Part shown: piece after piece, positions 9,407 to 29,201 of the stretch
Position numbering within the stretch: position 1 is the stretch's first letter
How the letters are laid out: every line of letters begins with the position of its first letter
Assembly: GCF_003812745.1 (NCBI RefSeq)
Contig: NZ_CP033831.1
Span: 2,418,001-2,482,000, forward strand
From: Serratia sp. FDAARGOS_506
GTDB taxonomy: Bacteria; Pseudomonadota; Gammaproteobacteria; Enterobacterales; Enterobacteriaceae
Direction: 5' to 3'
Length of the DNA stretch: 64,000 nt
Notes under the pieces: model-generated
What the model saw: the letters and a program-made list of their open reading frames with translations, nothing else
The model's database searches: none
What the model was told of the DNA's origin: nothing
Position numbers and translations under genes: made by a program

Positions 9407-9492
9407 GCTTTACGCTTCTTTACCATCCAACCGCTTGAAATATCAACACTCCAGCTCCATATAATGGAACGTTCAGCCAACAAGGAGCGCGT

Positions 9493-18736: not shown

Positions 18737-19852
18737 ATGCGCAATTCCCTTATTTTACTGCTGCTTTCCTTATGGCTCGGCGCGTTCTCCGCTCAGGCGA
18801 AAACGGTGACCGATATCACCGGCCGCCAGGTCGTGGTGCCGGACAACCCGCAGCGTATTGTGGTGGGGGAAAGCCGCATGCTGTATACGCTGGCACTGCT
18901 GGAGCCGGGCAACCCCGCGCAGCGCATCGTCGGCTGGCCGGCGGATCTGGCGCGGTTCGATGCGCAAAGCTGGCAGCTCTATACGCAGAAGTTCCCGCAG
19001 ATCGCCGCGATCCCCGTTATCAGCGGCAATAATTTCCGCCAGGTTAATATTGAAAGCCTGCTGCAGCTGAAGCCGGATCTGGTGATCCTGGCGCGTTACG
19101 CGCGTGAAGACGGCGACAACGATCTGCTGGTTTCCGCGCTGAACAAGGCCGGCGTGGCGGTGATCTACGTCGATCTGCGCATCGATCTGCTGAACAACAC
19201 CGTGCCGAGCGTGCGGCTACTGGGTGAAGTGCTCAATCGCCAGCAGCGTGCTGAGCAGTTCATCGCGTTTTATCAGCAGCATATGGCGGTGATTCAGCAG
19301 CGGCTGGCGGGCTATCAGGGGCCGAAGCCCAAAGTGATGCTGCACCTGCATTTGGGGCGGCGCGATACCTGCTGCACCACCGCCGCGCACGGCAACCTCG
19401 GCGATCTGCTGGCCTTCGCCGGCGGCGACAACATCGCCAACGCCAGCGTCAAAGGGGTGTATGGCGAGCTGAACCCGGAAACCATTCTGAGCGCCAATCC
19501 CGACGTTTACCTCGCCACCGGCATGGCCGGGCCACAGGGCAAGCGGCTGTCTGATCTACGCCTCGGGCCGCAGGTCAGCCAACAGGACGCCGCCGACAGC
19601 TTCCGCCGGCTGATCGCCAAACAGCCGATGCTGGCCAGCCTGCAGGCGGTGAAGCATCACCGCGCCTGGAGCGTCTGGCACAACTTTTACCTCAGCCCGT
19701 ACCACGTGGTGCTGGTCGAGATGTTCGCCAAAGCGTTTTACCCGGATCTGTTCGCCGACATTAACCCGCAGCAGACCTTCCAACAGCTGTATCAGCAGTT
19801 TTTGCCGTTACCTTTTTCAGGGACCTATTGGAGTCAGTTAGATAATGAATAA
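18737..19852 (+). CDS. Iron-siderophore ABC transporter substrate-binding protein
   Basis: A 371-residue periplasmic binding protein. Residues 1-21 (MRNSLILLLLSLWLGAFSAQA) form a signal peptide. TVTDITGRQVVVPDNPQRIV is the conserved start of FecB/TroA-like class III binding proteins for siderophores or haem, and LLQLKPDLVIL and LNPETILSANPDVYLATG are further family motifs. ATG 18737 lacks a strong ribosome site; ATG 18704, inside the Fur box region with GAGAG upstream, would add 11 residues and is a real alternative. The gene overlaps the TonB receptor by eight bases. No permease or ATPase gene is adjacent. Confidence 0.9.
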   Translation: MRNSLILLLLSLWLGAFSAQAKTVTDITGRQVVVPDNPQRIVVGESRMLYTLALLEPGNPAQRIVGWPADLARFDAQSWQLYTQKFPQIAAIPVISGNNFRQVNIESLLQLKPDLVILARYAREDGDNDLLVSALNKAGVAVIYVDLRIDLLNNTVPSVRLLGEVLNRQQRAEQFIAFYQQHMAVIQQRLAGYQGPKPKVMLHLHLGRRDTCCTTAAHGNLGDLLAFAGGDNIANASVKGVYGELNPETILSANPDVYLATGMAGPQGKRLSDLRLGPQVSQQDAADSFRRLIAKQPMLASLQAVKHHRAWSVWHNFYLSPYHVVLVEMFAKAFYPDLFADINPQQTFQQLYQQFLPLPFSGTYWSQLDNE

Positions 19853-21968
19853 CAACAAGCGCGGCTGGTGGTGCGCATTGCCTTTGGCGGCCTGCGCGAC
19901 ATCGCCGACGTGGGCGGCGGAGAAAGCTGCGCCGCAGGAAGAGAGCCTGGTGGTGGTCGGCCGCAAAGATGCCGACGGCGTGCAGAGCTATCAGCCGTTG
20001 ACCAGCGTCACCGGTACCCGCAGTGAAACCAGCCTGCTGAACGTGCCGCAGGCGATCGACGTGGTGCCGCCGCAGGTGATTACCGATCAGGCGGTCAGCA
20101 GCCTGGACGAAGCGCTGTACAACGTCAGCGGCATTACCCAGGCCAACACGCTGGGCGGCACCCAGGACGCGGTCATGAAGCGCGGCTTCGGCGACAACCG
20201 CGACGGCTCCATTTTGCGCGACGGCGTGCGCTCGGTGCAGGCGCGCAACTTTACGCCGACCACCGAGCGGGTGGAGGTGCTCAAGGGGCCGGCCTCGATG
20301 CTGTACGGCATGGGCGAGCCGGGCGGGATGATCAACATGATCACCAAAAAGCCCCAGTTGCAGCAGCATACCCACGTGGAAGGCTGGGGCAGCAGCTTCA
20401 ACGGCGGCGGCGGCCAACTCGACGTTACCGGGCCGCTCGGCACGTCGGGGTTTGCCTATCGCATGATCGTCGATCACGATGAAACCGATTACTGGCGCAA
20501 CTTTGGCCGTAATCGCCAGACGGTGATCGCGCCCTCGTTGATGTGGTACGGCGAGAACACCACCGTGCGGCTGGCCTACGAGCATATGGAATATCTGGTG
20601 CCGTTCGATCGCGGCACCATTATCGATTCGCGCACCGGCAAACCGGTGAATACGCCGCGCGATCGCCGTTTCGACGAAGCCTATAACGCCACCCGTGGCG
20701 ATCAGGACAGCATTACCCTGCAGATCGATCAAACGCTCAACGAGCGCTGGAAAAGCTCGCTGACCTACGCCTACAGCCGCAACAGCTACAGCGATAATCA
20801 GGCGCGCGCCACGGCGTTGAACCCGGTGACCGGCGTGTTGAGCCGCCAGGCCGACTCGACCGCCAACGCCGTCAGCCACGCCAACGCGGTGCAGCTGACG
20901 CTCAATGGCGACGTGGACTGGGGCAGCATCAACCACCAGATGCTGTTCGGCTTCGATTTTGAAGATAACCGCACCTTCCGCGGCGACATGATCCGCGGCA
21001 AGAAGAACAGCGATTTCAATATCTATCATCCGGTATACGGCCTGATGCCGCCGTCGACCGCGGTCAGCGCCAAAGACAGCGACCAGCGGGAAAACCTCAC
21101 CAGCTACGGTTGGTTTATGCAGGATTCCATCCAACTGACCGATCAATGGCTGGTGATGGGCGGTTTGCGTTACGACGCTTTCGACGTTTATGCCGGCAAA
21201 GGACGACCGTTCCAGACCAATACCGACAGCTCGGACAGCAAGTTGGTGCCGCGCGCTGGGGTGATGTACAAGCTGACGCCTTACGTGTCGCTGTACAGCA
21301 GCTATACGGAGTCGTTCAAGCCGAACTCCTCCATCGCCACCCAAATTGATTCGCTGCCGCCGGAGCAGGGCAAGTCGTGGGAAGTGGGCGGCAAACTGGC
21401 GCTGCCGAACGGCGTCACCGGCACGCTGGCGTTGTTCGACATCACCAAGCGCAACGTGATGGTCAATGAGCTGGTGGAGGGCGAAACCGTGACGCGCACC
21501 GCCGGGCGCGTGCGTTCGCAGGGGGTGGAGCTGGACGTGGCCGGTAATCTCACCGATTCGCTGAGCCTGATCGGTTCCTATGCGTATACCGACGCGCGGG
21601 TAGTGGACGATCCGGATAACAAGGGGAAAGAGATGACCAACGTGGCGCGCCACACCGCCTCGCTGTTTCTGACCCAGAACCTGGGCAGCCCGGGTCTCTA
21701 CAGCGGCGATGAGGTGCGCATCGGCGCCGGCGCGCGCTACGTAGGACGCCGCCCGGGTGACGCTGCCAACAGTTTCTACCTGGATAATTACACCGTTGCC
21801 GATGCGTTCGCCGCTTACACCATGCCGATCAACGGCTATCGGGTAAAATGGCAGCTGAACGTGAAGAACCTGTTCGATAAAACCTACTACCCGTCCAGCG
21901 GCGGCAATTTGCGCGTGGCGGTGGGGGAACCGCGTGAGGTGGTGCTGCGCGGCAGTATCGATTTCTAA
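19845..21968 (+). CDS. TonB-dependent siderophore receptor
   Basis: A 707-residue outer-membrane receptor. After a signal peptide (cleavage near TWAAE) comes a likely TonB box, EESLVVVG. The plug domain contains LNVPQAIDVVP, MKRGFGDNRDGSILRDGVR and VEVLKGPASMLYGMGEPGG, as in the ferrichrome/pyoverdine-type receptors. A 22-strand barrel follows, ending in SIDF with the C-terminal aromatic residue needed for barrel assembly. It is translationally coupled to the upstream binding-protein gene (ATGAATAA overlap), so both belong to one Fur-controlled unit. The siderophore is not identifiable by eye. Confidence 0.94.
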   Translation: MNNNKRGWWCALPLAACATSPTWAAEKAAPQEESLVVVGRKDADGVQSYQPLTSVTGTRSETSLLNVPQAIDVVPPQVITDQAVSSLDEALYNVSGITQANTLGGTQDAVMKRGFGDNRDGSILRDGVRSVQARNFTPTTERVEVLKGPASMLYGMGEPGGMINMITKKPQLQQHTHVEGWGSSFNGGGGQLDVTGPLGTSGFAYRMIVDHDETDYWRNFGRNRQTVIAPSLMWYGENTTVRLAYEHMEYLVPFDRGTIIDSRTGKPVNTPRDRRFDEAYNATRGDQDSITLQIDQTLNERWKSSLTYAYSRNSYSDNQARATALNPVTGVLSRQADSTANAVSHANAVQLTLNGDVDWGSINHQMLFGFDFEDNRTFRGDMIRGKKNSDFNIYHPVYGLMPPSTAVSAKDSDQRENLTSYGWFMQDSIQLTDQWLVMGGLRYDAFDVYAGKGRPFQTNTDSSDSKLVPRAGVMYKLTPYVSLYSSYTESFKPNSSIATQIDSLPPEQGKSWEVGGKLALPNGVTGTLALFDITKRNVMVNELVEGETVTRTAGRVRSQGVELDVAGNLTDSLSLIGSYAYTDARVVDDPDNKGKEMTNVARHTASLFLTQNLGSPGLYSGDEVRIGAGARYVGRRPGDAANSFYLDNYTVADAFAAYTMPINGYRVKWQLNVKNLFDKTYYPSSGGNLRVAVGEPREVVLRGSIDF

Positions 21969-22021: not shown

Positions 22022-22540
22022 ATGAGCCTGCAGATTCGTTTGGCGCAGCAACGGGATATCGTGCATCTGATGGCGGTTGAACGTTCGGCGGCGCAGCTGT
22101 TTCGCCAACAGCCGGAATGGCGCTTTATCGCCGAAGGCGAGGTGATGGCCCCGCAGCAGCATGCCGCGTTTATCGCCGAGCGCCGTGAATGGCTGGCGGA
22201 AAGCGACAACGGCGAGTGCGCCGGTTTTATCGCCGTGCAGACTCAGGGGAAAGATTGGCACATCGCCGAACTGTCGGTCGCCGGCACCTGGCAGCGGCAG
22301 GGCGTCGGCCGTCGCCTGATCGGCGCGGTGGCGGAAGAGGCCAAACGGCAGGGGGCTGACCGCCTGACGCTTACCACCTTCATCGAGGTGCCGTGGAATG
22401 CGCCTTACTACCGGCGACTGGGATTTCAGCCGCTTGACGATGCGCGGCTCACGGCCGCCTTGCGGCGGCATCTGGATGAGGACCTGGCGCACGGCTTTGC
22501 CGTCGGCAGTCGCTGTGCCATGGAATTTACACTATCGTAA
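22022..22540 (+). CDS. GNAT-family N-acetyltransferase
   Basis: A 172-residue acetyltransferase. WHIAELSVAGTWQRQGVGRRLI is the acetyl-CoA-binding motif (Q-R-Q-G-V-G), and WNAPYYRRLGFQPLDD is motif B with the usual Tyr. AAGGAG lies eight bases before the ATG. The substrate is unknown. It is separated from the receptor by 53 bases and may be transcribed with it. Confidence 0.9.
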   Translation: MSLQIRLAQQRDIVHLMAVERSAAQLFRQQPEWRFIAEGEVMAPQQHAAFIAERREWLAESDNGECAGFIAVQTQGKDWHIAELSVAGTWQRQGVGRRLIGAVAEEAKRQGADRLTLTTFIEVPWNAPYYRRLGFQPLDDARLTAALRRHLDEDLAHGFAVGSRCAMEFTLS

Positions 22541-23210: not shown

Positions 23211-23954
23211 CTATTCCGTTTGCCGAGCCGGCGCAAAGTAAGCCCCGGGGGTGACGCCGAAGCGGCGGCGAAAGGCGGCGATATAGGCGCTGACGTTGTC
23301 GTAGCCACAGGCATCGGCCACCTCGCCGACCGTTTCGCCGCGTGATAATCCCTCCAGTGAACGTAACACCCGCGCCTGCTGGCGCCACAGCGCGAAGCTG
23401 ATGCCGGTTTCCTGCAGAAAGCGGCGGCTCAGGGTGCGCGGGCTGAGCCCGGCCCAGGCGGCCCAGTCGCGCTGGCTGCGCGGGCCGGCGGGATCGTTCA
23501 GCAGCGCCCGGGCGATGTTCAGCAACCGGTCGTCCTGCGGCAGCGGCAATTGCAACGGCGCGCGGCTTGCCGTGTGCATTTCGTCCAGCAGCACCTGCAG
23601 CAGCCGCCGTTGCGGCGCACTCAGCGGGCCGACGGGGAACTGCGCGATGCGCTCTACCAGGGCCTGCAACAGCGCAGAGGCCGTGAACAGCTGCGGCTGC
23701 GGCGGCATCTCCGGCACGCTTTCCACCGGCAGATACAGACTCCAGCCCGCCACGTCGCCGCAGGCCAGCGCCTGATGGGCGCATCCCGGCGGCAGCCAGC
23801 CCAGCGTACCGCCGGTGATCGCCCATTGCCGGCCTGGGAGTTCCATTGCCAGCATGCCGCGCGTCAAGAGATAGATCTGGCCGCCTTCGTGCCGGTGCCA
23901 GGGCGTCAGGTGCTTTTTTTCATGTTGAAGGCGTTGGCTGCGGATCTGCGTCAT
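23211..23954 (-). CDS. AraC-family transcriptional regulator with cupin sensor
   Basis: A 247-residue regulator. The N-terminal cupin (TPWHRHEGGQIYLLTRG ... GTLGWLPPGCAHQA) is a ligand sensor of the type seen in NimR/YdeO-like AraC proteins. The C-terminal double helix-turn-helix contains WAAWAGLSPRTLSRRFLQET and VADACGYDNVSAYIAAFRRR. It is divergent from an NTF2-like gene across 96 bases, and these two genes together split aroL from yaiA. The inducer is unknown. Confidence 0.92.
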   Translation of the reverse strand: MTQIRSQRLQHEKKHLTPWHRHEGGQIYLLTRGMLAMELPGRQWAITGGTLGWLPPGCAHQALACGDVAGWSLYLPVESVPEMPPQPQLFTASALLQALVERIAQFPVGPLSAPQRRLLQVLLDEMHTASRAPLQLPLPQDDRLLNIARALLNDPAGPRSQRDWAAWAGLSPRTLSRRFLQETGISFALWRQQARVLRSLEGLSRGETVGEVADACGYDNVSAYIAAFRRRFGVTPGAYFAPARQTE

Positions 23955-24703: not shown

Positions 24704-25005
24704 CCTGCAGCCCAGCGGAAACCGGCGCCAGGCCGGTTTCCTGTTTATGGCTTGGATCGACGCCCCTCATTCCCTTTCTGCGCTGATTTAGCAGCTTGTC
24801 CTGCCATTCATTATTTTCAAAGCGTATCGTTATTTTAATCGACGTGGCGAAGTTGGCGTTCTGCGCATTATTTTCATTTAAAAAGCACGAATGCCTTTTA
24901 TTTTGCAGCTGACAAAAAATAAACAGCTTGACGCTGCGCAGTTCGGGTTTTAGTTTTTAATTATAAAACAGGAACTGAGTTCCATATAGTGGAACAAGGC
25001 GAATC
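24704..25005 (+). promoter_or_regulatory. yaiA terminator and IclR-gene control region
   Basis: The region begins with a terminator at 24717-24747: GGAAACCGGC pairs with GCCGGTTTCC, followed by TGTTTAT. The rest is AT-rich. At its right end lie GGAAC-TGA-GTTCC (24971-24983) and the overlapping perfect palindrome GTTCCA-TATAG-TGGAAC (24979-24995), 10 bases before the IclR-family start. The latter is the likely autoregulatory operator. Confidence 0.75.
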
Positions 25006-25779
25006 ATGACAACGCTGGAAAATGCCGCTGCGGTATTAAAACTCTTTTCTCAACAACGCGTGATGCATGGCCAACCGGGTATTGCATTCAGTGACGTGGT
25101 GGGCCAATTGGCGCTGCCGAAAAGCACGGTATCTCGCCTGCTGCAGGCCATGGAAAACCAGGGCATGCTGGAGCGCGATCCCGATAGCCGGCGTTATCGC
25201 ATCGGCGCGCTGTTGCTGGCGGCATCCAGCCACTACCTGTCGATGCCGTTGGTGGACAGCCTGGCGGCCAGTATGGCGCAGCTGTGCCGCCAGACGGCGT
25301 GTACCGGCTACCTTTCGATATTGGAAGGGCAGGAGATCATGGTAATGCGCATGTTCCCCGGCCGCCACTTTTTGCAGGTGGTCACCCCGGCGGGTTACCG
25401 TTCGCCGGCGGCGGAAACTTCGGTCGGGCGGGCGATACTGGCGCGTGAAAGCGACGAGCAGGTTCGGGCGCGTTACGCCGGCGGTTACCGGGCGTCTTCG
25501 CCCAATGCGCCGCAAACGTTGGATGCGCTGTTGCAGAAGTTGCAGCAGGTGAGGCGTCAGGGATGGTCGCTGGCGCGCAATGAAACCTTAAACAGTATCA
25601 GTTCGCTGGCGACCGCGCTGGTGAACAAGCACGGCAGCGAGACGGTAGGGCTGTGCCTGTCCTTCCCTTCGCAGGGAGAAGAGCAGCCGTTTGTGCCGGA
25701 AGTCCTGGCCGAATTAACCGCAGTCAGCCGCCAACTGGCGGAAAAATATGGCGATGATTATTGGCAACAGATCAAATAA
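25006..25779 (+). CDS. IclR-family transcriptional regulator
   Basis: A 257-residue regulator. The N-terminal winged helix-turn-helix is in residues 5-70 (LPKSTVSRLLQAMENQGMLE then YRIGALLLAA). The IclR effector domain follows, with VTPAGYRSPAAETSVGRAIL and a C-terminal LCLSFPSQGEE segment. A perfect palindrome lies directly in front of the gene and another in front of the downstream transporter gene, both sharing GTTCCA-N5-TGGAAC, which fits IclR-type operators. It therefore probably controls itself and the transporter-DUF1177-aroM operon. Confidence 0.93.
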   Translation: MTTLENAAAVLKLFSQQRVMHGQPGIAFSDVVGQLALPKSTVSRLLQAMENQGMLERDPDSRRYRIGALLLAASSHYLSMPLVDSLAASMAQLCRQTACTGYLSILEGQEIMVMRMFPGRHFLQVVTPAGYRSPAAETSVGRAILARESDEQVRARYAGGYRASSPNAPQTLDALLQKLQQVRRQGWSLARNETLNSISSLATALVNKHGSETVGLCLSFPSQGEEQPFVPEVLAELTAVSRQLAEKYGDDYWQQIK

Positions 25780-25910
25780 CGCGCCTGAGCTATCGCGTTT
25801 CATCATAATTAACGAGCGCCGACACCAGGGAGCTCATTAATTATATTTCACCGTATTTTATTGGTGAGAAGTAGATAGGGTAAATAAGAAAATAAACACG
25901 TTATGACGCC

Positions 25911-25935
25911 GGCAGTTCCAAATAATGGAACTGCC
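25911..25935 (+). promoter_or_regulatory. Candidate IclR operator in front of the transporter operon
   Basis: GGCAGTTCCA and TGGAACTGCC form a perfect 10-bp inverted repeat around AATAA. The inner GTTCCA-N5-TGGAAC is the same as at 24979-24995. It lies 64 bases before the transporter start, in a 219-base gap. Confidence 0.75.
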
Positions 25936-25998
25936 GCGGCGAGCTATCGCCTGGCGTTATTTCCGGCATGCGGCAGGAAATATTCAGGGAAACCAAGA

Positions 25999-27555
25999 AT
26001 GAAATCAAATAATCCGCTAAAAGAGGCCGGCACGCTGTTGGTCATGGCGTTGCTTTCGGTGGTGGGGGCGATCATCGGCGTTCAGCTGATCACCACGCTG
26101 GGCGTGACGCCCAACACTTCGATCATCGGTGCGCTGATCGCCATGCTGCTGGCACGCATTCCGCTACAGATGTTCCAACGCTACCGCTCGGTGCATACCC
26201 AGAACCTGGCGCAAACGGTGATCTCCTCCGCCACCTTCGGCGCGGCCAACTGTCTGCTGATGCCGATTGCGGTGCCTTATGTGATGGGGCAACCGCAGCT
26301 TATTTTGCCGATGTTCTGCGGCGTGGCGGCGGCGATGCTGCTCGACGCCTATCTGCTTTATCGCCTGTTCGATACCAAAGTGTTCCCCGCCGCCAATGCC
26401 TGGCCGCCGGGCGTCGCCGCCGCGGAGGCGATTAAAGCCGGCGATCGCGGCGGCAAGCAGGCCTGGCTCCTGGTGGTAGGCGTCGTGGTGGGCATCGCCG
26501 GCTCAATGCTCAAGATCCCTATGGCGGCCTTCGGCACCGCCTTTATCGGCAATATCTGGGCGCTGAGCATGTTCGGCGTCGGGCTATTGCTGCGGGCCTA
26601 TGCCGAGCCGGTGGCCGGTTTGGATATCAACGCCCATTTTATTCCGCACGGCGTGATGGTCGGCGCCGGCCTGGTGGCGCTGATCCAGGTTGCCCAGGTG
26701 ATCCGCAGCCGCCGCGCCGATAGCGCCGGTTATACCCAGCCGGACAGTGCGGTAAGCAAAGCGCTCGGCCTGGGCGCAGTCGGCTACATCGCCATCGCCG
26801 CGTTTTTGGCTCTGGTCGGCGGGCTGTTTAGCGAGATGTCGCTGCCGATGTTGGCGCTGTTCGTGATTTACGCGGCGTTCGCTGCTTTCGTTCATGAATT
26901 GATCGTCGGTATTGCCGCCATGCACTCAGGCTGGTTTCCGGCATTCGCGGTGGCATTGATCACTCTGATCGTCGGTATCCTGATCGGTTTCCCACCGCTG
27001 GCGTTGTGCATCCTGACCGGTTTTACCGCCGCCACCGGGCCGGCCTTCGCCGACATGGGCTTTGATTTGAAAGCCGGCTTCATCCTGCGCGGTTACGGCC
27101 AAGATCTGCGGCAGGAACTGCTGGGGCGCCGCATTCAGCTGTTTGCGGCGCTGATCGCCTTTCTCATCGCCATTCCGGTGGTTTACCTCTCTTATCACAG
27201 CTATTTCCTACAGGACCTGATCCCGCCGGTCGCGCGCGTTTACGCGAAGACCATCGAGGCCGGTGCGCAGCCGGGCATCGCCTGGAGCCTCTTGATCTGG
27301 GCGATCCCCGGCGCTGTGGTGCAGCTGATCGGCGGTCCTAAGCGCCAGCTCGGCGTACTGCTGGCAACCGGCTTACTGATCAACAACGCCTTGGCCGGGT
27401 GGGCGGTGCTGGTCGGCATCGCGCTGCGTGTGGCGATCCTGCGCCGTTGGGGCGATCGCGGCCGCACACCGATGGAGATCATGGCGGCCGGGTTTATCGC
27501 CGGCGACGCGCTCTACAACTTCTTCAGCTCGATTTTTTCCAGCAAGGGCAAATAG
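25999..27555 (+). CDS. OPT/YSL-family transporter
   Basis: A 518-residue inner-membrane protein with about 12 to 14 hydrophobic helices. TLGVTPNTSIIGALIAMLLA near the start, NAWPPGVAAAEAIKAGDRGG, and MEIMAAGFIAGDALYNFF near the end resemble the oligopeptide/metal-chelate transporter (OPT) family. I chose ATG 25999 (MKSNNPLKEAG); the longer frame starts inside the operator region. DUF1177 follows after 34 bases and aroM after it, so the three form an operon. OPT substrates are peptides or metal-chelator complexes; here the substrate is unknown. Confidence 0.83.
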   Translation: MKSNNPLKEAGTLLVMALLSVVGAIIGVQLITTLGVTPNTSIIGALIAMLLARIPLQMFQRYRSVHTQNLAQTVISSATFGAANCLLMPIAVPYVMGQPQLILPMFCGVAAAMLLDAYLLYRLFDTKVFPAANAWPPGVAAAEAIKAGDRGGKQAWLLVVGVVVGIAGSMLKIPMAAFGTAFIGNIWALSMFGVGLLLRAYAEPVAGLDINAHFIPHGVMVGAGLVALIQVAQVIRSRRADSAGYTQPDSAVSKALGLGAVGYIAIAAFLALVGGLFSEMSLPMLALFVIYAAFAAFVHELIVGIAAMHSGWFPAFAVALITLIVGILIGFPPLALCILTGFTAATGPAFADMGFDLKAGFILRGYGQDLRQELLGRRIQLFAALIAFLIAIPVVYLSYHSYFLQDLIPPVARVYAKTIEAGAQPGIAWSLLIWAIPGAVVQLIGGPKRQLGVLLATGLLINNALAGWAVLVGIALRVAILRRWGDRGRTPMEIMAAGFIAGDALYNFFSSIFSSKGK

Positions 27556-27589
27556 CCCATGCCGATGACATTGGTGAGGTAAAACGACC

Positions 27590-28519
27590 ATGAGTTTGCA
27601 ACAAACGCTGCAGGTTTTTGAATTGATTGATAGCGCATTCGTCAGCGGCCAGGACGTCGTCGATCTGTTTGCGCCTTACCCGGCGATCCGGGCCAGCACC
27701 TTGCGCGCCGACGGGCCGAAGGGTGGCACCGATTTCGTGCGCATCGAGATCCCCGGTAGCGCAGGTAAGTTCGGCGGCGGTACGGCGCCGACGCTGGGCA
27801 TTATCGGCCGCCTGGGCGGCATCGGCGCACGGCCGACGCGTATCGGGCTGGTGTCCGACGGCGATGGCGCGATCGCCGCCATTGCCGCCGCGCTGAAGTT
27901 GGCGGAGATGCAGCGTAAGGGCGACACGCTGCCGGGCGATGTGATCGTCACCACCCATATTTGCCCGAACGCGCCCACCCGGCCGCATGACCCGGTCGAT
28001 TTTATGGATTCGCCGATCGATGACGTGACGATGAACGATAATGAAGTGGTACCGGAGGTTGACGCCATCCTGTCGATCGATACCACCAAAGGCAACCGCA
28101 TCATCAACCACAAAGGCTATGCGCTGTCGCCGACGGTGAAAGAGGGCTACATCCTGCGGGTGGCGGAAGATCTGCTGCGCATCATGGAGATGACCAGCGG
28201 CCGCCCGGCGGTGACCTTCCCAATCACCACGCAGGATATCACCCCTTATGGCAACGGTGTACATCACCTCAACAGCATCCTGCAGCCCTCGACCGCTACT
28301 GCGGCGCCGGTGGTCGGCGTGGCGATTTGCAGCGAATCGGTGGTGCCGGGCTGCGGGACCGGCGCCAGCCACGAAACGGACATTGCGCTGGCGGTTAAAT
28401 TCGCGGTGGAAGTCGCCAAAGAATTCGGCCGCGGCACCTGCCGGTTCTACGATGCCGCCGAATACGACCGGCTGTTGGCGCTGTACGGCAGTCTGAGCCA
28501 CCTGCAAAAAAGGAGATAG
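27590..28519 (+). CDS. DUF1177 domain protein
   Basis: A 309-residue cytosolic protein of the uncharacterised DUF1177 family. Conserved stretches rich in potential metal or substrate ligands are visible: TTHICPNAPTRPHDPVDFMD (residues about 122-141), YGNGVHHLNSIL, and ESVVPGCGTGASHETDIALA near the C-terminus. The many conserved His/Asp/Glu suggest an enzyme, perhaps hydrolase-like, but I know of no assigned reaction. It lies between a transporter gene and aroM, with four bases to the latter, so it most likely acts on the imported compound. Confidence 0.88.
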   Translation: MSLQQTLQVFELIDSAFVSGQDVVDLFAPYPAIRASTLRADGPKGGTDFVRIEIPGSAGKFGGGTAPTLGIIGRLGGIGARPTRIGLVSDGDGAIAAIAAALKLAEMQRKGDTLPGDVIVTTHICPNAPTRPHDPVDFMDSPIDDVTMNDNEVVPEVDAILSIDTTKGNRIINHKGYALSPTVKEGYILRVAEDLLRIMEMTSGRPAVTFPITTQDITPYGNGVHHLNSILQPSTATAAPVVGVAICSESVVPGCGTGASHETDIALAVKFAVEVAKEFGRGTCRFYDAAEYDRLLALYGSLSHLQKRR

Positions 28520-28523
28520 ACCC

Positions 28524-29201
28524 ATGACGGTCTCATTCGCCACGCTGACCCTCGGTCAGGCGCCGCGCAGCGATATCATGCCGCTACTGTCTGCTTATCT
28601 GCCGGCGGAGCGGGTGAGGCACGTCGGTTTGCTGGATGGCCTGGATGCCGGGCAGATCGCCGAGCGTTATGCGCCGCAACAGGGCGATAAGCTGCTGGTG
28701 TCGCGCCTGTTGGACGGTACACAGGTGACGCTCTGTGCCGCTCGCGTCGAAAGCGGACTGCAGCAGAAGATCCGCGAGCTGGAGGCGGCGGGGTGCCAGG
28801 TGATCCTGCTGCTGTGCACCGGCGAGTTCGAGCGATTGCAGACGGAACGGGCGCTGTTGCTGGAGCCGGATCGCATTATCCCACCGTTGATCTCCGCGAT
28901 CGTCGGTGAACACCGCGTTGGCATCGTGGTGCCGATGGCGGAACAGGTTGGGCAGCAGGCGCGTAAATGGCGGCAACTGGCGACGCCGCCGAGCTATGCT
29001 GTCGCCAGCCCCTATCTGGCTGATGATGCCGCGCTGGAGCAGGCGGCTTGCGCGCTGCTGCGGCAGGGGGCGGAGGTGGTGGTGCTCGATTGCATCGGTT
29101 ATCACCAGCGCCATCGCGCTTTTTTGCAGGCGCGTCTGTCGGTGCCGGTGCTGCTGTCCAACGTACTGGTCGCCAAGCTGGCTGCAGAGTTAATCGACTG
29201 A
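28524..29201 (+). CDS. aroM: AroM family protein
   Basis: A 225-residue cytosolic protein, the same length as E. coli AroM and clearly homologous (LEPDRIIPPLISAIVGEH, VVLDCIGYHQRH, PVLLSNVLVAKLAAELI). The fold pattern resembles Asp/Glu racemase-like enzymes: a Cys in each half, Cys98 in LLLCTGEF and Cys190 in VLDCIGY, at positions where two-cysteine racemases carry their bases. From memory, E. coli AroM keeps only the second Cys. GGAG lies nine bases upstream, inside the DUF1177 end. The role is not established despite the aro name; the neighbours suggest work in the same pathway as DUF1177. Confidence 0.92.
   Translation: MTVSFATLTLGQAPRSDIMPLLSAYLPAERVRHVGLLDGLDAGQIAERYAPQQGDKLLVSRLLDGTQVTLCAARVESGLQQKIRELEAAGCQVILLLCTGEFERLQTERALLLEPDRIIPPLISAIVGEHRVGIVVPMAEQVGQQARKWRQLATPPSYAVASPYLADDAALEQAACALLRQGAEVVVLDCIGYHQRHRAFLQARLSVPVLLSNVLVAKLAAELID

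Follow-up and report, generated by a model that had tools for sequence, protein, structure and literature searches.

An IclR-OPT-DUF1177-AroM gene unit in Serratia as a candidate system for peptide uptake and breakdown and a possible source of Escherichia coli aroM

Introduction

In Escherichia coli K-12, aroM, a gene named for its position beside aroL, lies in the order aroL-yaiA-aroM-ppnP-rdgC. The window analyzed here, a stretch of 64,000 nucleotides from the 4.86-Mb genome of Serratia sp. FDAARGOS_506 (contig NZ_CP033831.1, positions 2,418,001 to 2,482,000), holds at the same site genes for an IclR-family regulator, an OPT-family transporter, a DUF1177 protein and an AroM protein. This locus raises the question of what the four genes do together and how E. 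coli aroM is related to them. A first-pass annotation of the window had suggested that the transporter imports a compound that is processed by DUF1177 and AroM and sensed by IclR, and that E. coli aroM may be the last survivor of this operon. We found that DUF1177 and AroM recur as neighbors in the family, in Bacilli and in a haloarchaeon, amid interchangeable transporters and peptidases, and that most AroM proteins standing alone beside ppnP or rdgC lack part of a cysteine pair that is invariant in the linked forms. We modestly favor the view that the unit, induced by its substrate, serves the import and breakdown of an unusual small peptide, with E. coli aroM as its same-site descendant.

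Results

DUF1177 and AroM recur with transporters and peptidases

The unit comprises the following genes.

25006-25779, plus strand: IclR-family transcription regulator (PF01614, 81.3 bits, cut-off 24; PF09339, 41.3 bits, cut-off 22)
25999-27555, plus strand (longest frame from 25903): OPT-family transporter (PF03169, 112.5 bits, cut-off 25.8)
27590-28519, plus strand: DUF1177 protein with a predicted zinc-exopeptidase fold (PF06675, 448 bits)
28524-29201, plus strand: AroM with a predicted Asp/Glu-racemase fold and cysteines C98 and C190 (PF07302, 252 bits)

The four genes run in one direction between yaiA and ppnP, with gaps of 34 bases between OPT and DUF1177 and 4 bases between DUF1177 and AroM; the open reading frames and Pfam matches agreed with the first-pass annotation on this arrangement, and the K-12 gene order confirmed its statement that E. 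coli keeps aroM alone at this site. Both the HTH_IclR and IclR_C domains of the regulator exceeded their Pfam cut-offs, as did the transporter the curated cut-off of PF03169, and the regulator fell below all NCBIfam equivalog cut-offs.

The gene neighborhoods of 86 DUF1177 loci were compared, comprising the best 80 of 432 genome loci and 6 plasmid loci. Neighbors were scored on the same strand and within 8.5 kb of DUF1177 by profile matches with E below 1e-15, and families were named by a Pfam scan of one representative each and by profiles built from clusters. AroM was a neighbor in 76 of the 86 loci and OPT in 64, and either OPT or an Opp/Dpp-type ABC gene was present in 80. A peptidase was found in 55 loci (M29-like aminopeptidase in 29, PepE in 21 and M20 in 8), a racemase gene in 33, DUF917 in 21 and hydantoinase genes in 6. 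The regulator was IclR in 52 loci and PucR in 26. Klebsiella and Sodalis plasmids carried complete IclR-OPT-DUF1177-AroM-PepE-racemase cassettes, and the annotated order on a plasmid of the haloarchaeon Salinigranum was ABC transporter, DUF917, DUF1177, AroM, aminopeptidase, racemase and an aspartoacylase-like gene.

Around the constant pair DUF1177-AroM, a peptide ABC transporter can stand in for OPT and the type of peptidase varies; this exchange is our main argument that the imported compound would be a small peptide. The linkage pattern, as read from sequence, points to peptide uptake and processing. The uptake-and-processing role proposed by the first-pass annotation is thus supported by linkage; its choice of cargo, a peptide or a metal chelate, is narrowed in favor of a peptide by the replacement of OPT with Opp/Dpp-type ABC genes elsewhere and by the recurring peptidases and racemases. 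According to the available part of PMC11078827, PepE acts on Asp-X dipeptides and is a member of a linear Asp-X dipeptidase family. Its presence is a hint that the compound is aspartyl.

On the Klebsiella plasmid pRHB26-C08_2 (L135), which was typed as conjugative, the complete cassette is flanked by insertion-sequence genes; a near-match search found no E. coli copies of this Klebsiella plasmid cassette, distant copies not being sought. In three Providencia loci (L047, L060 and L078), DUF1177 was accompanied by IclR plus a permease of the cytosine/purine type, a different pairing that includes neither AroM nor OPT.

Co-occurrence was counted in three genome samples. Both genes were rare in the phylum sample: DUF1177 was present in 1 of its 299 genomes, the window's own, and AroM in 6. 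The family sample (178 genomes, the window's own included) contained DUF1177 in 19, AroM in 67 and both in 16, and the class Bacilli sample (250 genomes, including a center genome picked for having DUF1177) contained DUF1177 in 23, AroM in 23 and both in 21; the Fisher p values, which ignore kinship, were 1.6e-5 and 3.4e-26, respectively. By coordinates, the two genes were adjacent in all 16 family genomes that have both, two of which carry broken copies. In the Bacilli with both genes, AroM lay within 10 kb of DUF1177 in 20 of 21 genomes and far off in one; 15 of these 20 pairs were directly adjacent, and the other 5 were 2.6 to 8.2 kb apart, four of them on opposite strands. Recurrent linkage of DUF1177, AroM and OPT, the absence of which the first-pass annotation had named as a refuting result, was observed in the 86 loci and, for DUF1177 and AroM, upheld in the family and Bacilli samples.

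Fragmented DUF1177 genes beside AroM were seen in two genomes, G321 (L099, L100 and L102) and G345 (L098 and L101), with completeness values of 49 and 85, and at one locus of a genus member (L249) the AroM match beside DUF1177 was split into two pieces in different frames. The nearest named match to the window DUF1177 protein came from Serratia sp. Ag1 (90% identity), whose ppnP site (L002) carries iclR, OPT and DUF1177, with no adjoining AroM found. A search of phages for DUF1177 gave no match.

Linked AroM carries a racemase-type cysteine pair that is incomplete in most lone forms

The operon AroM is predicted to adopt a two-domain racemase fold, and C98 and C190 of the window protein paired with the invariant cysteines of the cassette racemase (hhalign probability 96.4). 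These models describe an Asp/Glu-racemase fold with both cysteine positions of the superfamily, for which catalysis is predicted. AroM belongs to its own family, PF07302, and scored 21.1 bits against PF01177, below the cut-off of 31.

We compiled AroM sequences from the fetched loci, dropping matches shorter than 180 residues (collection rows) and merging those identical over the last 200 residues, which reduced 196 sequences to 158. All 99 AroMs whose fetched locus also contained DUF1177 had both cysteines, and 48 of the 59 other AroMs lacked at least one. Among lone AroMs beside ppnP or rdgC, 47 of 48 non-redundant sequences lacked at least one cysteine, and in 46 of these 47 the first position was Ser, Asn, Gly, Ala, Thr or Phe. 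E. coli K-12 AroM (L133) has Ser at the first and Cys at the second position, leaving the pair incomplete. The change extended beyond the cysteines: 15 positions that were at least 95% conserved in the 99 linked AroMs had another consensus in the 47 solo AroMs, including Q12, R15, D38, R61, G100, Q141, S162 and Y164. This contrast leaves out four divergent solo rows (L214, L220, L222 and L223), three of which (L214, L220 and L223) keep both cysteines. One genome (G458) has an operon-linked AroM (L109) together with the lone two-cysteine AroM L214 near yaiA.

The solo genes appeared to be maintained. Rough dN/dS estimates, several with dS above 1, were 0.05-0.12 in 10 of 11 solo pairs, the eleventh being saturated, and were similar to the 0.02-0.14 obtained for 7 pairs of operon AroMs. 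Of 5,426 E. coli genomes, 5,375 (99%) had a match to aroM. Since the signature has changed yet dN/dS is low and the gene is nearly always present, E. coli aroM is kept, though probably not as a two-cysteine racemase. Since the E. coli protein no longer has the signature conserved in operon AroMs, its function cannot be read from the operon.

DUF1177 is predicted to have a zinc-exopeptidase fold

The predicted fold of DUF1177 was that of a zinc exopeptidase, examples of which are the TET aminopeptidases 5ds0 and 9qr6 and the Vibrio aminopeptidase 1amp. Its conserved residues, candidates for metal ligands that differ from the usual set, were D90, H123, C125, D164, H226 and H261. A PDB search returned no credible relatives at the sequence level, and the DUF1177 profile gave no confident match to M20, M29, DUF917 or M42. 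DUF1177 and AroM, for which the first-pass annotation gave no known reaction, now have predicted folds, those of a zinc exopeptidase and a cysteine-pair racemase, respectively.

Probable descent of E. coli aroM from the operon at the same site

All sampled AroMs from the yaiA-ppnP site formed one clade with support of 100/100. The solo AroMs formed a clade in the first tree (98 SH-aLRT) and joined the Pantoea operon AroMs in the second (99/95), in which all 16 outgroup rows were DUF1177-linked, two-cysteine proteins; 37 and 98 of the 158 rows were left out of the first and second trees, respectively. Two loci (L127 and L186) looked intermediate, having iclR, the operator-like palindrome and a two-cysteine aroM without OPT or DUF1177, and no DUF1177 was found anywhere in the two intermediate genomes (G460 and G326). 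In 54 stretches 5' of solo aroM, tblastn at E 0.05 detected no remnants of OPT or DUF1177, and IclR matches and operator copies occurred in the two IclR-AroM intermediates only. Whichever way the site operon AroMs branch, these sequences are more simply explained by loss from an ancestor that sat in the operon. The suggestion that E. coli aroM is the last survivor of the operon can thus be kept, on the evidence of the clade and the intermediates, in the sense of a same-site survivor, with the refinement that this survivor has lost the operon-protein signature.

The site itself varies within the genus of the window. Of 28 ppnP loci, 13 contained DUF1177 and AroM; the whole unit was seen in one of these, iclR and OPT lying outside the fetched stretch in the other 12. 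In 7 loci yaiA and ppnP were 181-355 bases apart, and the remaining 8 had other content or were unresolved. Two (L252 and L256) of three loci read more closely carried at this site an apparent has haem-uptake operon (receptor, haemophore and exporter). The presence of has-like genes there in other genus genomes suggests that the yaiA-ppnP site is an insertion hotspot.

Operator-like palindromes precede iclR and OPT

Three further features were found around the unit.

24717-24741, plus strand: terminator-like hairpin 3' of yaiA, with a 10-pair stem and a short T-rich tail (consensus match only)
24979-24995, no strand: operator-like palindrome GTTCCATATAGTGGAAC just 5' of iclR, of the pattern GTTCC-N7-GGAAC
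25915-25931, no strand: second operator-like palindrome GTTCCAAATAATGGAAC 5' of the OPT gene, with 11-base perfect arms at 25910-25920 and 25926-25936

The GTTCC-N7-GGAAC pattern occurred in the window at these two places and nowhere else (0.05 copies expected), and exact matches to the operator pattern GTTCCANATANTGGAAC in the whole genome were the same two palindromes. With at most one mismatch, 29 of 36 proteobacterial loci, those of beta- and alphaproteobacteria among them, had the palindrome close to the start of iclR, compared with 2.2% of random stretches. The ATG at 25999 is more likely to be the OPT start than 25903, since the palindrome at 25915-25931 would otherwise fall within the gene. 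Counted from 25999, OPT begins 219 bases after iclR, and because of this distance and the operator-like palindrome before each gene, the sequence favors a separate regulator gene followed by an operon of three genes over a single four-gene transcript. The palindromes fit the earlier suggestion of local control by IclR, which is not a universal partner of DUF1177, given the PucR loci. The putative terminator at 24717-24741 would separate the unit from aroL-yaiA; terminator-like hairpins numbered 10 in the window against 5.7 expected (sd 2.6).

A one-mismatch copy of GTTCCANATANTGGAAC, GCTCCATATAATGGAAC, was seen at 9454-9470, overlapping a TATAAT-like box and lying 22 bases 5' of a small membrane-protein-like open reading frame at about 9493. 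Around the unit, open reading frames and Pfam matches gave the order aroL, AraC-like (by eye), SnoaL-like, yaiA, IclR-OPT-DUF1177-AroM, ppnP and rdgC. Before yaiA lie a GNAT-like gene (22022-22540) and the AraC-like gene (23211-23954, minus strand), and a TonB-dependent receptor-like gene, recognized by eye, lies at 19845-21968, a few genes 5' of the unit. An S51 peptidase gene is located elsewhere in the genome.

Discussion

We propose that the compound is dipeptide-sized, probably with a D-, iso- or cyclized residue and plausibly aspartyl. IclR would bind GTTCC-N7-GGAAC before its own gene and before OPT and repress until the compound is sensed, and OPT, judging from its family and neighbors, would import the peptide. 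AroM may then invert a stereocenter, as its predicted fold and its cysteines suggest, and DUF1177, with a predicted fold and a putative metal site, may cleave or open an amide. General peptidases would finish the breakdown: PepE, M29 or M20 beside other cassettes, and perhaps S51 in this genome. In E. coli, OPT, DUF1177 and the racemase-type signature would have been lost and aroM retained for a different role. More broadly, and with somewhat less than even confidence, we suggest that DUF1177 and AroM form the core of a previously undescribed bacterial and archaeal peptide-catabolic pathway, in which a zinc-exopeptidase-fold enzyme and a cysteine-pair epimerase jointly render an imported D-, iso- or cyclized dipeptide usable, E. 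coli AroM being a retired epimerase with a new, non-racemase role.

Several observations weigh against this reading. Taking the best 80 of the 432 genome loci biases the neighborhood sample toward near relatives; 10 of the 86 loci had no AroM within reach and 6 had neither OPT nor an Opp/Dpp-type ABC gene, and 3 of the 19 family genomes with DUF1177 hold no AroM anywhere. Both cysteines were kept in 11 of the 59 AroMs without DUF1177 in the locus, namely the two intermediates, the unlinked L214, L220 and L223, and six Bacilli rows with DUF1177 elsewhere in the genome. DUF1177 gave no confident profile alignment to M42 or M20. The two-metal ligand set of zinc exopeptidases consists of HxD, D, EE, D/E and H, and by eye the HxD and EE motifs were not evident in DUF1177. 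The palindrome near iclR was missing in 7 of 36 loci and in both plasmid cassettes examined. At up to two mismatches GTTCCANATANTGGAAC had 12 genome matches, compared with 4 for the reversed control, and one of the ten other two-mismatch matches, at C2:760532, is itself GTTCC-N7-GGAAC, so further targets of the operator pattern are possible. As to descent, an AU test (p 0.084) did not reject at 5% a tree that unites the site operon AroMs in a clade of their own, separate from the solos, which makes the exact branching unsure despite the absence of such a clade from all 200 bootstrap trees. Loss of the dyad required at least 3 changes and loss of DUF1177 at least 6; an independent-pairs test of the two losses found 3 pairs on supported branches and had no power, and losses so few on the tree cannot be called statistically independent.

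Could the four genes be mere neighbors in a variable insertion site that do not act jointly? The genus site does hold DUF1177-AroM, no insert or other genes, but their linkage is repeated elsewhere, both at different sites and among Bacilli and in a haloarchaeon, and we see hardly any chance of this; chance adjacency was set aside on the family and Bacilli co-occurrence together with the 86 neighborhoods. It is quite improbable, too, that OPT imports a metal-chelator complex and that DUF1177 and AroM recycle the chelator. OPT/YSL transporters carry metal chelates in plants and fungi, and the apparent has operon occupies the same site in some genus genomes; against this, Opp/Dpp-type peptide ABC genes replace OPT elsewhere and peptidases occur in 55 of 86 loci, and metal-chelate uptake was set aside as the leading explanation on the swap and the recurring peptidases.

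The cassette might also serve detoxification, importing or meeting a Trojan-horse peptide antibiotic and cleaving it harmlessly. S51 peptidases confer resistance to microcin C, as stated in the available part of PMC9239234, and the cassette is plasmid-borne in some hosts, once between insertion-sequence genes; an importer would nonetheless be an odd core gene for pure defense and the window operon is without PepE, so we regard this role as very unlikely. A cyclic dipeptide or a hydantoin-like ring as the compound is a doubtful alternative that deserves more weight: AroM would epimerize a ring carbon, DUF1177 (DUF917 in Bacilli) would open the ring, and peptidases would split the linear product. 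Genes for AroM, DUF917, hydantoin racemase and OPT are enriched in synthase-less cyclodipeptide-oxidase clusters, according to the available part of PMC11055893, and the 21 loci with DUF917 and 6 with hydantoinase genes agree with such a ring. Scoring of the enterobacterial loci, however, gave no DUF917 and no hydantoinase, and PepE, the usual extra gene of proteobacterial loci, belongs to a linear Asp-X dipeptidase family (PMC11078827, available part).

An unusual small peptide thus remains our preferred cargo. With it, the unexplained E. coli gene aroM gains a history and DUF1177 a first structural handle. The reading predicts that the operon AroM is a racemase or epimerase and that E. coli AroM is neither, and it offers one transporter, a pair of enzymes and an operator as joint candidates for the parts of a missing peptide-salvage pathway.

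Comparison with known systems

Operons for peptide uptake and catabolism are of a known kind; the DUF1177-AroM enzyme pair is new as far as we searched. In the open-license literature, we found neither an IclR-OPT-DUF1177-AroM unit nor the fold of DUF1177 described, and nothing on a descent of E. coli AroM from such a unit; DUF1177 itself had a single passing mention, in a paper on other DUFs. The closest parallel lies in the synthase-less cyclodipeptide-oxidase clusters of PMC11055893, where, in the part available, AroM, DUF917, racemase, OPT or ABC and peptidase genes co-recur as they do in DUF1177 loci; the comparison covers these genes, and the main text of that paper, as available, contains 0 occurrences of DUF1177.

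The two enzymes differ from their predicted relatives in distinct ways. The zinc-exopeptidase fold of M42, M28, M20 and M17 is shared by DUF1177 as a predicted fold, but sequence kinship was not found, and the metal motifs of these families are not evident in DUF1177, which has other conserved residues, listed above. AroM forms a Pfam family separate from the Asp/Glu/hydantoin racemases of PF01177, which include aspartate racemase (3s7z/2dx7), hydantoin racemase (2eq5) and allantoin racemase (5lfd), and the cysteine pair of that superfamily is incomplete in most lone enterobacterial AroMs. The E. coli aroL-yaiA-aroM region has aroM only, with no iclR, OPT or DUF1177 and with the first Cys replaced by Ser, at a chromosomal site and between flanks that it has in common with the window.

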